64,000 bases of DNA, from assembly GCA_016928195.1 (NCBI GenBank), contig JAFGLF010000076.1, positions 17,191 to 81,190 of the forward strand, in the 5' to 3' direction. Made by a program: the position numbers and the translations under genes. This document shows positions 20,165 through 59,945 of the stretch, piece by piece (position 1 is the first letter of the stretch; each line of letters begins with the position of its first letter). The stretch is from Elusimicrobiota bacterium (GTDB lineage: Bacteria; Elusimicrobiota; UBA8919). The notes under the pieces are model-generated. The model was not told the origin of the DNA and made no database searches. It worked only from the letters and a program-made list of their open reading frames with translations.

Positions 20165-21004
20165 ATGAAAAATTTTACTAAATTTGTTATTTGTTATTTG
20201 TTATTTGTTATTTGTTATGGGTGTTCTCTATACCGTTCTAAACAGAAACTGTGCAAGGTTATTTATTCTGAAAAATTATCCAGACCCATAGAGGCGATTG
20301 CTATTCTTCCTGCTTCAATCGGTTTTAAGACAGGGAATGCTACAGAATTCGTCCCGCTTGTAAAATCTCCATTGGTTATAGAGAATAAATCGGAAATATG
20401 GTCGGGTCAGCGTGAAGAAAAAATGATTGTTGACCGAACCACTGCGGAAGAGATAAGTAAACATACTTCGGAACATTTTTATAATATTATATTGAAAAGA
20501 AAAAAACTTAGACGTGTTGTGCACCCGGCGAGCGTGAGAAATGTAATGCGGGATAAAAAAGTAAGTATAGGAAGGTTTCAACATATAAGTGATTTAAATA
20601 TACAGCCTGTCCTGGAAAAGTTGTTTAAGATTGCCGATAATTTAGAAGTTGATGCTTTGATAATAAGTATTATAAATAAGTGTGAGACCGCCATTGTTTA
20701 TAAAAGAGTCCGTTCTATCGAGGGAGATGATTTCGGCGAGTATCACGGCGACATGGAATATTTTTATAAATTCAAACTTGAAGTCGGAGTTTTCAATGCT
20801 TCAGAAAAAAAAATCTGCTGGATTGGAGAATATGAAAAAATAAAATCAAACAGAACCCCTGAGTTAGAACAGAATGTTCTAGTTGCAGTAGTAACTAATG
20901 GTTTTGAAAAGTTTTTCAAGAAATATTTGACTGAAAAAATTGTAAAAGGCGGAGGGCCTGAATATCAATGTGTATCAAGAATAGTCGATACATTGCCGTT
21001 TTAG
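20165..21004 (+). CDS. Putative lipoprotein
   Basis: MKNFTKFVICYLLFVICYGCSLYRSK signal/lipobox-like N-terminus; start trimmed from 20099. Confidence 0.6.
   Translation: MKNFTKFVICYLLFVICYGCSLYRSKQKLCKVIYSEKLSRPIEAIAILPASIGFKTGNATEFVPLVKSPLVIENKSEIWSGQREEKMIVDRTTAEEISKHTSEHFYNIILKRKKLRRVVHPASVRNVMRDKKVSIGRFQHISDLNIQPVLEKLFKIADNLEVDALIISIINKCETAIVYKRVRSIEGDDFGEYHGDMEYFYKFKLEVGVFNASEKKICWIGEYEKIKSNRTPELEQNVLVAVVTNGFEKFFKKYLTEKIVKGGGPEYQCVSRIVDTLPF
20180..20218. repeat. Heptanucleotide tandem repeat (TTATTTG)n inside signal peptide
   Basis: tttgttatttgttatttgttatttgttatttgttatg. Confidence 0.9.
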
Positions 21005-34738: not shown

Positions 34739-35314
34739 ATGCCAGAAACAAAAAAACAAGGTAACAAGGTAATAAAGGAACAGGCAGGTTTTTGTTTTCT
34801 TATTTTTTTGTTTTCTTGTTTTCTTGTTCCCTGCCTCTATTGCGCTGATTTGGGTATAGATGTTGGAAATGAATCAATTAATTTTTCGCTGAGACAGGTT
34901 TCATCGACCGAAACTTTTAAGCTTTCAGATTATAAAACTAAAAATCCGGTTCTCTTAAGCTTTTTTGCGACATGGTGCCCTTCCTGTGTACGGGAAATAC
35001 CAGAATTGAGCAAGATTTACAAAGAATATAATAAAAAAGGGCTTGAGATTGTTTCTGTAAATGTCCAGGAAAATGAGGAAAAAGTTACAACCTTTATGAG
35101 AAGGAAGAATATTAGCCATAAAGTTTTGCTTGATATAAATGCCGGGGTAACAAAAGAGTTTAAGGTTTACGGAATCCCAACAAACATTTTAATTAACACA
35201 GAGGGTATTATAGTTTTTCGTGGTTATGATTTACCGGCAGAAAAAGAAATAGAAAAGGTTTTAATAAAACCAAAAAAGAAGTCTAAAAAAAGAAGAAAGT
35301 GGGAAGAAAATTGA
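34739..35314 (+). CDS. Exported TlpA/ResA-like thioredoxin
   Basis: FFATWCPSCVREIPEL; hydrophobic N-terminus encoded by a repeat. Confidence 0.9.
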   Translation: MPETKKQGNKVIKEQAGFCFLIFLFSCFLVPCLYCADLGIDVGNESINFSLRQVSSTETFKLSDYKTKNPVLLSFFATWCPSCVREIPELSKIYKEYNKKGLEIVSVNVQENEEKVTTFMRRKNISHKVLLDINAGVTKEFKVYGIPTNILINTEGIIVFRGYDLPAEKEIEKVLIKPKKKSKKRRKWEEN

Positions 35315-56235: not shown

Positions 56236-56298
56236 ATGAAAACGCGAATTAAAAGTAGTTATTTGTCCGCCGCGGCGGATTAATGAGTGAAACGAATA
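56236..56298. repeat. Degenerate dyad element with TCCGCCGCGGCGGA core
   Basis: ATGAAAACGCGAATTAAAAGTAGTTATTTGTCCGCCGCGGCGGATTAATGAGTGAAACGAATA-ATG; palindrome 56266-56279. Confidence 0.8.
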
Positions 56299-58395
56299 AT
56301 GAAGATAAAACTTTTTCCAAAATTCCTGATTTTTATTTCATTAATTTCAATCATACCGCTCATTGTTATAGGGTTTTTAACTATTAATATAAATAAAGAA
56401 ATGCTGCAGACAGTAATGCTTGAACATCATATAAAAATTACAACTGCTCTTTCTGAAAAAATCGATGCTAAAATAGGCAATATTGAACGGCGGATAAATT
56501 TTATTATTGCTACACAACAGCAGGAAAATCTATCAACTTTTGAACAGATAGGTATCGTTAGAAATATTTTGATAGCGTCGGATGATTTTGTAAGAGTTTC
56601 TGTAATTGACAAAGTAGGTGATGAGGTCGTTGCAGCAAATCCGAAGTTTGAAAGGACCCCTCCGCCTCCGAAAAAATATTTAAGGAACGGATATTATTTA
56701 AAAGTAAAAGAAACTAAAAAATACCAGATAACACCGCTTTATTATGACCAGGAAAGACCGACAATTGACTTTTATTTTCCCCTTAAAAACATGTATGTAT
56801 TGAAAATATGCGTTTCACTTGAGGATATTTTTAATATTGTGAGTGAGACAAGTGTTGGTTCCACCGGATATATTTTTATAGTTGATAAAGACGGCAAAAT
56901 CATATTTCATAGAAGGAAAGAACTGGCTGTTAATTCTGAAGATGTTTCTGCAGAACCGATTGTGAAAGCGGCAATAATAAGTACAAATATTGGAAGTCAG
57001 GAATTTGTTTCTAAAGACGGGGTAGAGGTGATAGGTGCATTTGCACCGGTAAAAAGACTGGGATGGAGGGTAATATTTCAGCAAATGAAAAGTGAGGCCT
57101 ATTCATCAATGATAAAAATGAGAAGAAATGCTGTGGTGACAATATTAATAGTATTACTGCTTGCAATTTCTGTTTCCTATATTCTGGCGGGATCGCTTTC
57201 AAAGCCAATTCTTAAAGTAATTGATGTTTCAAAAAATGTTGCGAAGAGGGATTTTACAAAAAAAATTGATATTAAAACAAGAGATGAAATGAGCGATTTG
57301 GCTAACAATTTTAATAATATGATTAGCGAACTTTCCCATTATACAAAAATGCAGGCGGATGAATTATCAACAATTGTATACTCCATTAATGACGGGCTGA
57401 TACTTACAAGAGAAAATAGTAATATTGTTCTTATGAATAGTATGGCAGCAAAAATACTTGATATCCCCAAAGATTCAACAGGGGTACTTTCCGAAGTTGT
57501 TAAAAATAATGAATTACGTATAGCACTTAAACAGGTATCGGAAAACCCTGAAGTTGTAAAAGAAGTTGATTTGTCATCCGATAAACCATTTATTATAAAT
57601 GTTTCCAGTCAGGTTATAGTAGACCCGGATGAGAAAACGGTTGGCAGTATAGTTTTTGTTTTGCGTGACATAACAGGCGCAAAAGAGATTGAAAAAATGA
57701 AAGACGACTTTTTTCACGGTATTACACACGATTTAAGGAATCCGCTTACATCAATGCTAGGATTCCTTAAGTTCTTGATAGAAGGCACTGTGGGGCCTAT
57801 TAATGATAAACAGAAACATTTTTTGGAAATTATTAGAAAATCATCCAATAGACTTCTTGGAATGATAAATGATATACTTGATGTAGCAAAATTGGAAGCA
57901 GGGAAAATGGAGCTGAACTTAAAACAGTTTAATATTAAGGATACTGTAAAAAGAGCCTGCGATGCTATGGCTTCCAAGGCAATGGAGGATAATATTGGAT
58001 TGATTAATGAAACTCCGGAAGTAATTATTACTGCTGATGAAGAGGCAATAGAAAGAGTTTTGATAAATCTTATTGGAAATGCATTGAAATATACATCATC
58101 TGGAGGAAAAGTTAGGGTCTTAACCCAGGATTCTAACGAAAAAATTGAAGTTTCAGTCATTGATACTGGTGAAGGTATCCCTTCGGAATATCTGGATAAA
58201 ATTTTTGATAAATTCCAGCAAGCAGGTGGTCACAGCAAAGGAGGCGCAGGTATAGGACTTACAATTACAAAGTATATAGTGGAATCACATTTGGGTAAAA
58301 TATGGGTTGAATCAAAAATAAACGAAGGGTCGAAATTTATTTTTACTATCCCAAAAAATTTGAAAAGAAATAAAAAGAATGAAATATATATATAG
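56299..58395 (+). CDS. Sensor histidine kinase (periplasmic sensor, HAMP, PAS-like, HisKA, HATPase)
   Basis: HAMP VAKRDFTKKIDIKTRDEMSDLANNFNNM; FFHGITHDLRNPLTSMLGFL; NLIGNALKYTSSGG. Confidence 0.94.
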   Translation: MKIKLFPKFLIFISLISIIPLIVIGFLTININKEMLQTVMLEHHIKITTALSEKIDAKIGNIERRINFIIATQQQENLSTFEQIGIVRNILIASDDFVRVSVIDKVGDEVVAANPKFERTPPPPKKYLRNGYYLKVKETKKYQITPLYYDQERPTIDFYFPLKNMYVLKICVSLEDIFNIVSETSVGSTGYIFIVDKDGKIIFHRRKELAVNSEDVSAEPIVKAAIISTNIGSQEFVSKDGVEVIGAFAPVKRLGWRVIFQQMKSEAYSSMIKMRRNAVVTILIVLLLAISVSYILAGSLSKPILKVIDVSKNVAKRDFTKKIDIKTRDEMSDLANNFNNMISELSHYTKMQADELSTIVYSINDGLILTRENSNIVLMNSMAAKILDIPKDSTGVLSEVVKNNELRIALKQVSENPEVVKEVDLSSDKPFIINVSSQVIVDPDEKTVGSIVFVLRDITGAKEIEKMKDDFFHGITHDLRNPLTSMLGFLKFLIEGTVGPINDKQKHFLEIIRKSSNRLLGMINDILDVAKLEAGKMELNLKQFNIKDTVKRACDAMASKAMEDNIGLINETPEVIITADEEAIERVLINLIGNALKYTSSGGKVRVLTQDSNEKIEVSVIDTGEGIPSEYLDKIFDKFQQAGGHSKGGAGIGLTITKYIVESHLGKIWVESKINEGSKFIFTIPKNLKRNKKNEIYI

Positions 58396-58400
58396 AATAT

Positions 58401-59945
58401 ATGAAAATTAAAAGATTACAGAGATTAAAACATTATAAGAATTTAAAGATTTCAATTTTTCTAATCTTTCTAATTTTTCAATCTTTTAGTTATCTTTATT
58501 CAGAACGCCTGCAAGAGATAGAAGTAAAGGCCGGTGATACTCTTTGGGGAGTTGCAAATTATTATTTGAAAGAGCCGTCAAAATGGCCCGAGATTTTAAA
58601 GTTTAATAATATTTCCGCAGATCCTCATAATGTTCTTCCTGGGACAAAGCTTAAAATTCCTGTTATGCTTATAAAAGAAAAACTGCGGTCTTCAACAATG
58701 GTATCGATTATTAGAAAAGTGAAAGTGAGACGCCAAAAAGAAATGGACTGGAATGATGCAAAAAATAATATGAAACTTTATAATGAAGATGGTGTAAGAA
58801 CCCTTGAAAATTCCTATGCTGGGGTTAAAACACCATCCGGGAATCTAATGACCATAGGACCATTATCACTTGTTATAATTCAGCCGGAAAAAAAATCGGA
58901 TGAGACACGCCTTTTATCTGGTGAAATTCGTGCATCAAATATACCTATAAGAACGCCGTCGGCATTTATTATGCCAAGGATTACTCCTAAAACACCCAGT
59001 GCTGATTATAAAGCAAAAGTGAAAGAAGACTTGTCTACTGTTGTTGCAGTATACAAAGGATTAGTGGATGTTACAGCAAAGAATAAGACGGTTTCGGTTG
59101 CTGAAGGCTTTTCTACAGAGGTAAAACTAAATCAGCCGCCGATGCTGCCCAAGGAACTTCCGCCAACTATAAAGTCTTCCGACGATCCAGAAATTATGAT
59201 AAAGGATGTTGCTTCTAAAGATACAGAAAAAAAAGTTCCTGAAATAAAGGAGGTCAATGTTAAAAACACCGGGAAACCCACCAGTATAAAGAATACAGGA
59301 GATATGAATGTGAATGAAATTAATGTGGGAGGGGAACTTTCCAGGTCAGGCAGTTCTTCGGGGTGGATTGATATAACACATTATCGTATACAGATTGCAA
59401 GGGATAAGGAATTTAATGATACGGTTTTCAATTCTGTTCGACCTATATATGAAAAGTTTGATATTAAAAAAACTAAGGTTCCTGACGGTAAGTATTTTTG
59501 GAGGGTGGCTTATCTTGATTCGTCAGGTGCCGAAGGCATACTCTCTTCTGCGAAAATAATGCTTGTTGATAAGACACCGCCGCCGTTGACTATTGAAGAG
59601 CCTCCGGATAACTCAAAATTCAGTGATAAGAGCATAAGTGTAAAAGGCATTACTGAACCAGCTTCCGCAGTTGATATTAATGGTCATTATGAAAATGTTT
59701 ATGAGGACGGAAGTTTTTCAGCAAAGGTTTCTATTAAAAAAGGCGAAAATATTATCAAAATTAATTCTAAGGATGAATTCGGGAATCTTTCCACTGTTTC
59801 ACTGAAAATTTATCGTACGGAAGAAGCTGCGAAACAGCAAATATCAAAGAAAAAAGGTTTTTTCTCTACGCCGATGGGTATTGCGGTGTCAGTTTTGACT
59901 ATTTCTGTTTTATTGGTGATTTCCGTTGTAACAGTAGCAGGATAA
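58401..59945 (+). CDS. LysM + FecR-like exported protein
   Basis: LQEIEVKAGDTLWGVANYYLKEPSKWPEILKFNN (LysM); FecR-like region; C-terminal TM. Confidence 0.83.
   Translation: MKIKRLQRLKHYKNLKISIFLIFLIFQSFSYLYSERLQEIEVKAGDTLWGVANYYLKEPSKWPEILKFNNISADPHNVLPGTKLKIPVMLIKEKLRSSTMVSIIRKVKVRRQKEMDWNDAKNNMKLYNEDGVRTLENSYAGVKTPSGNLMTIGPLSLVIIQPEKKSDETRLLSGEIRASNIPIRTPSAFIMPRITPKTPSADYKAKVKEDLSTVVAVYKGLVDVTAKNKTVSVAEGFSTEVKLNQPPMLPKELPPTIKSSDDPEIMIKDVASKDTEKKVPEIKEVNVKNTGKPTSIKNTGDMNVNEINVGGELSRSGSSSGWIDITHYRIQIARDKEFNDTVFNSVRPIYEKFDIKKTKVPDGKYFWRVAYLDSSGAEGILSSAKIMLVDKTPPPLTIEEPPDNSKFSDKSISVKGITEPASAVDINGHYENVYEDGSFSAKVSIKKGENIIKINSKDEFGNLSTVSLKIYRTEEAAKQQISKKKGFFSTPMGIAVSVLTISVLLVISVVTVAG

Follow-up and report, generated by a model that had tools for sequence, protein, structure and literature searches.

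How does a gene for an exported protein come by its signal peptide? The origin of new signal peptides is hard to study because these segments are short and evolve fast. A locus in a 64,000-nucleotide stretch of DNA (hereafter the window), taken from an Elusimicrobia metagenome-assembled genome (assembly GCA_016928195.1; named relatives UBA9627 and RIFOXYD2_FULL_34_15), raises this question in an unusual form, as the DNA encoding the predicted signal peptide of a LysM protein is a dyad, with one arm followed by its approximate reverse complement. A first-pass annotation had proposed that this dyad repeat was recruited as the signal peptide, and both of the strings it quoted were located in the sequence together with the 34-residue peptide they encode. 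The proposal is borne out, because the dyad belongs to a genomic repeat family. Very probably, a repeat copy settled at the junction between a histidine kinase gene and the LysM gene, where it came to serve as the latter's signal peptide, in a process that recurs throughout this bacterial family by way of genome-specific repeats.

Comparison of the dyad DNA with its own genome (G000) revealed about 40 other matching places, the best of which is 85% identical over 78 nt (E 1e-18). A covariance model built from 19 copies identifies 32 distinct places at E<0.002, a number that rises to 36 when the cut-off is relaxed to E<=1. The aligned copies form an imperfect palindrome of approximately 63-95 bp (CAATTAAAAGATTGAAAG...CTTTCAATCTTTTAATTG) composed of 8-9-nt units (AAAGATTr on the left, yAATCTTT on the right), with CAATT and AATTG as its usual boundaries. 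Almost every copy occupies a narrow intergenic gap, typically 4-30 nt from the neighbouring genes. None of those checked breaks up the interior of a gene, and the few that overlap the ends of open reading frames (ORFs) do so only through doubtful upstream start codons. By its size (an imperfect palindrome with inverted arms, below 200 bp) and by its many, mainly intergenic copies (32-36 places), the family belongs to the broad kind that resembles miniature inverted-repeat transposable elements (MITEs) or repetitive extragenic palindromes (REPs). The same genome carries a single gene for a Y1 transposase of the IS200/REP-associated type (Y1_Tnp, PF01797; G000:C78:27917-28234); each of the sister genomes G001-G005 has 5-7 such genes, and G008-G010 have none.

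Two copies of this family are translated as N-termini, one in the window LysM protein and the other in a 297-aa TPR protein (MTKPTKKLEKLQRLKSLSIFIIFSILPIFQFSNCLYSQD). In both, the start codon is directly followed by the repeat, which supplies almost the entire signal peptide. For the LysM gene, ATG 58401 is the only in-frame ATG, GTG or TTG between the upstream stop codon and TTG 58566, which lies within the LysM domain. No other start is thus available ahead of that domain, so the repeat is translated if the protein is made, and a mis-annotated start is ruled out. The encoded peptide follows the Sec signal-peptide pattern, in which a positive n-region (MKIKRLQRLKHYKNLK) precedes a hydrophobic stretch (ISIFLIFLIF), and it would be expected to work in Sec export. 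Cleavage by signal peptidase is plausibly predicted after LYS (SYLYS before ER), and the signal peptides of LysM orthologues end in CLYS or CLYA. The annotation had also called the protein LysM/FecR, a label whose second part is not supported, as Pfam reports LysM and Glucodextran_B but no FecR (PF04773) at E<=0.001.

Orthologues were taken from whole genomes, since a protein scan of the genome contigs gave just two relatives. The mature LysM protein is conserved over six genomes of the family (DNA identity 0.73-0.79, with one pair at 0.92); the signal-peptide segment of the same six is mostly 0.25-0.57 identical, and 0.76 in the pair G004/G005. In at least four of these genomes (G004, G005, G007 and G003) the signal-peptide DNA is a copy of the genome's own dispersed repeat, and these repeats are genome-specific and differ from that of the window. 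G003 and G007, which belong to one genus, have mature DNA that is 92% identical and a signal-peptide segment that is only 34% identical, yet the start (ATGCGTATAA) and the downstream junction are common to both, a pattern that reads as a clean exchange of signal peptides. The G001 orthologue carries in this segment a GTCCGAG/TTGGACA heptamer array, as judged by eye. The annotation had stated that it would be contradicted by orthologues whose signal peptides are homologous but lack the DNA dyad; none was found, as the family orthologues differ in this segment and most are built from other repeats. Outside the family, orthologues from the same phylum mostly carry ordinary signal peptides of shorter length. 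In one of them (G034, L008), the likely start codon of the LysM orthologue has a CCCCCTTTTTCAAAGGGGGATTT-type palindrome immediately upstream, which suggests that in another family, too, repeats are drawn to the LysM gene junction.

Table 1. Features of the LysM locus (window coordinates)
Feature	Position	Strand	Remarks
Sensor histidine kinase gene, upstream neighbour	56287..58395	+	stop 5 nt before ATG 58401
Exported LysM protein, 514 aa	58401..59945	+	LysM 41-87, Glucodextran_B 394-471 (Pfam); export predicted
LysM protein signal peptide MKIKRLQRLKHYKNLKISIFLIFLIFQSFSYLYS, encoded by repeat copy	58401..58502	+	34 residues; predicted
Left arm, purine-rich	58403..58447	+	gives Lys/Arg n-region
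Right arm, pyrimidine-rich	58450..58494	+	gives Phe/Ile/Leu h-region
Dispersed palindromic repeat copy	58414..58492	+	bounds from covariance model R1; 52.5 bits, E 1.4e-6; also - strand 58413-58492, 46.8 bits

Signal peptides encoded by repeats are also found on other proteins. By a hand count from a table, G004 has about 14 genes (open frames >200 aa) of this kind, including those for OmpH-like and HEAT-repeat proteins. Two adjacent lipoproteins, one with TPRs, have mature parts 77-86% identical between G005 and G001 or G004, and their signal-peptide repeats differ. Likewise, the 297-aa TPR protein is 61% identical to its G003 orthologue, and the repeat in the signal peptide differs. Read in the signal-peptide frame, the right-hand end of the G004 element (AATTGCCTCTAT; L071-L078) gives N/H-C-L-Y, and several intergenic copies end similarly; the repeat is thus predicted to supply the c-region before the cleavage site as well. 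A further array stands in the window at 34739-34850, where a Redoxin/AhpC-TSA-family protein has a signal peptide built from a TTTTCTTG-type array with a unit of 8 nt and ending in PCLYC.

The similarity between sites could instead have arisen by slippage, if units of 7-8 nt expand in place without any incoming copy and converge on simple pyrimidine-rich sequences. Several signal peptides are indeed simple arrays, as at window 20165-20230, where the lipoprotein-like N-terminus MKNFTKFVICYLLFVICYGCS is made from about five tandem heptamers of the TTTGTTA type, a sequence found at 3 places in the examined genome DNA; for simple heptamer arrays such as these, slippage is a possible origin. As a general account it is improbable, however, because whole elements are common to unrelated genes. 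Four genes on one G004 contig carry elements of about 97 nt, with non-repetitive centres, that are approximately 95-97% identical, and comparison of the mature parts of these four proteins revealed no detectable similarity. Moreover, the palindromic arms and the ends of the elements are seen again in intergenic copies, and a REP-like palindrome is nested within the G007 signal peptide. This last element (GTCATGCTGAACTTGTTTCAGCATC...CCCCGAAACAAGTTCGGGGTGACA; L005, G007:C160, about 1386-1550), which is like both REPs and Rickettsia palindromic elements (RPEs), lies in the middle of another repeat.

How widely repeats underlie exported N-termini was assessed in unbiased samples comprising 464 kb of the window's own genome (the window plus 400 kb of G000) and 400 kb of G004. 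The figures for a G003 sample, which contain loci picked for their repeats, were excluded from this evidence. A sequence was scored as repetitive if a 28-nt stretch was at least 82% identical to itself when shifted by 7 or 8 nt, and signal peptides were classified by a simple charge/hydropathy rule with visible errors both ways. In the window's own genome, such repeats underlie 14 of 94 signal-peptide N-termini, 0/149 cytosolic N-termini (p 9e-7) and 0/134 internal transmembrane segments (p 2e-6), and G004 has them in 10/52 signal peptides versus 5/124 cytosolic N-termini (p 0.002); these p-values are descriptive, as the classifier thresholds and the 7/8-nt shift were picked after the heptamers had been seen. 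Other shifts provide an internal control, and repeats at 4, 5, 10, 11 and 13 nt were almost never observed. Two other families of the phylum (G036 and G013) yielded no 7-8-nt repeats. Recurrence by BLAST, in which some hits reflect ordinary paralogy and some signal-peptide genes are misfiled as cytosolic, gave 15/94 signal-peptide versus 8/149 cytosolic N-termini in the window's own genome and 16/52 versus 6/124 in G004. The window copy is not among the 14 positives, since its 8-9-nt units are too uneven to pass the test. Exported N-termini are only weakly enriched for dyads (2/94 versus 0/283), an enrichment for which the annotation had proposed a test, and the more general feature proves to be the 7-8-nt tandem repeat (14/94 versus 0/283).

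The dyad might also be a regulatory RNA hairpin or an intergenic element, with its translation being incidental or an annotation error. Its mRNA could form a long hairpin, and most copies of the family do reside in narrow intergenic gaps. However, no known structured RNA was matched when Rfam was searched with the dyad, the LysM gene offers no other start codon ahead of its domain, and in orthologues heptamer arrays or REP-like palindromes take the place of the hairpin without loss of the n/h/c pattern. We consider this account very unlikely, although a regulatory role in addition to coding is possible.

Folding by itself says less. The best ungapped dyad (the two arms of Table 1) extends over 45 nt with 71% complementarity, a score equalled by 1.3% of synonymous recodings. 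The 102-nt segment folds at -16.5 kcal/mol, which stands out when codon order is shuffled separately in each half (z -3.1; 0.25% are as stable) but much less so against synonymous recoding (z -1.5; 7% fold as well), and the fold with flanks is at z -1.5 against dinucleotide shuffles. Base pairing alone thus makes the dyad only moderately unusual for its peptide, and part of the dyad follows simply from the skew of the peptide in a genome rich in AT; the recurrence of a dyad of about 80 bp across the genome is the stronger evidence. That the dyad is merely a chance product of composition, with a Lys/Arg-rich and then Phe/Leu/Ile-rich peptide dictating A-rich and then T-rich, trivially self-complementary DNA, gains something from the recodings that fold equally well but is barely credible, being ruled out by the 32-36 family copies and the 78-nt intergenic match, and such dyads are rare or absent in other exported N-termini and internal transmembrane segments.

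Why should an intergenic repeat be able to serve as a signal peptide at all? In the intergenic copies, 11% of frames on each strand are free of stops and encode a positive and then hydrophobic peptide. This proportion is 10% after shuffling within arms, 2.7% after shuffling the whole element and 1.2% when the arms are swapped. Because the arm-preserving shuffle keeps the rate, the property stems from the order of the arms, purine-rich first and pyrimidine-rich second, and as the element is a palindrome, this order holds in either orientation. The annotation had argued that an A-rich/T-rich dyad yields a signal peptide. The assignment of the purine arm to the n-region and the pyrimidine arm to the h-region stands, whereas the shuffles give no support to base pairing as the source of the property. 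Pyrimidine-rich heptamer arrays, for their part, encode hydrophobic periods of seven residues (FVICYLL, FTFYLLP).

Recruitment from a dispersed repeat would have proceeded as follows. A copy of a short, non-autonomous palindromic repeat would have landed at the histidine kinase/LysM gene junction, where a stop-free frame came to be read as Lys/Arg and then Phe/Ile/Leu, that is, as an n-region and an h-region. Because selection on signal peptides acts on composition and not on sequence, they would be the N-termini able to take up DNA of this sort. Across the family, the repeats of each genome would replace or invade the segment between the kept start codon and the kept mature protein. Copies probably reach new sites through transposition or through recombination with other copies, and their retention would reflect tolerance together with selection for a working signal. 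On balance we also favour, with less assurance, a broader view for this family in which the dispersed repeats, both palindromic and heptameric, serve as mobile signal peptides, which would spread among unrelated exported proteins by transposition or recombination and repeatedly replace existing signals of conserved proteins, lipoproteins among them, such that the signal turns over independently of its cargo.

Three observations weigh against these interpretations. Just 2 of the approximately 32-36 copies of the window repeat family are translated. The signal-peptide segment of the G002 orthologue, which contains an ATTTCAA heptamer run, has no second copy in the G002 genome. Lastly, 7-8-nt repeats in G004 occur in 7/50 internal transmembrane segments versus 10/52 signal peptides (p 0.6), and the target in that genome is thus wider than signal peptides. 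Large membrane proteins of G004 carry 7-nt repeats in internal transmembrane regions (L181 7537-11887 and L166 6335-8539), and some of these proteins are paralogues of one another.

Judged from the DNA itself, repetitive sequence seems to have served time and again as a source of export signals in this Elusimicrobia family, which points to a coding use for DNA that is usually seen as selfish or regulatory. The donors can be identified, because genome-specific repeats persist as intergenic copies beside orthologues that use another repeat for the same job, which makes the de novo origin and the replacement of export signals directly testable. A purine/pyrimidine palindrome may be well suited to this role, as either orientation gives a positive and then hydrophobic peptide.

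Dispersed heptanucleotide repeats also include the short tandemly repeated repetitive (STRR) sequences of cyanobacteria. In the open-access literature searched, we found neither a signal-peptide role for dispersed heptanucleotide repeats nor any description of repeats that recurrently supply or exchange signal peptides across a whole family, most subscription literature lying outside the search. The TAACTGA repeats of Beggiatoaceae are likewise dispersed heptamer arrays in bacterial genomes, but they are described as lying in intergenic regions (PMC4679880). REPs tagged with GTAG or CGTC are dispersed, mostly intergenic palindromes that sometimes occur at ORF N-termini, and by eye they look similar to the palindrome nested within the signal peptide of G007; however, they are 20-40 bp long with the tag at one end, unlike the 63-95 bp element with CAATT/AATTG ends, and most N-terminal cases were deemed probable mis-annotation, with signal peptides unmentioned (PMC3733652). 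RPEs are palindromic repeats inserted in frame within protein-coding genes, but they come from another organism, have another sequence and, in the portion of the review available, are set apart by their description, which covers many kinds of protein and does not mention signal peptides (PMC2229807). The closest precedent is the RU-2/YPAL element in Yersinia YPO1552 (Delihas 2007, PMC2759123; review PMC2229807), a single case in which homologues in other genera carry unrelated signal peptides. That case concerns one locus and a 168-bp element of different sequence, whereas the Elusimicrobia repeats are distinguished by recurrent use, by exchange between orthologues and by elements common to unrelated proteins.
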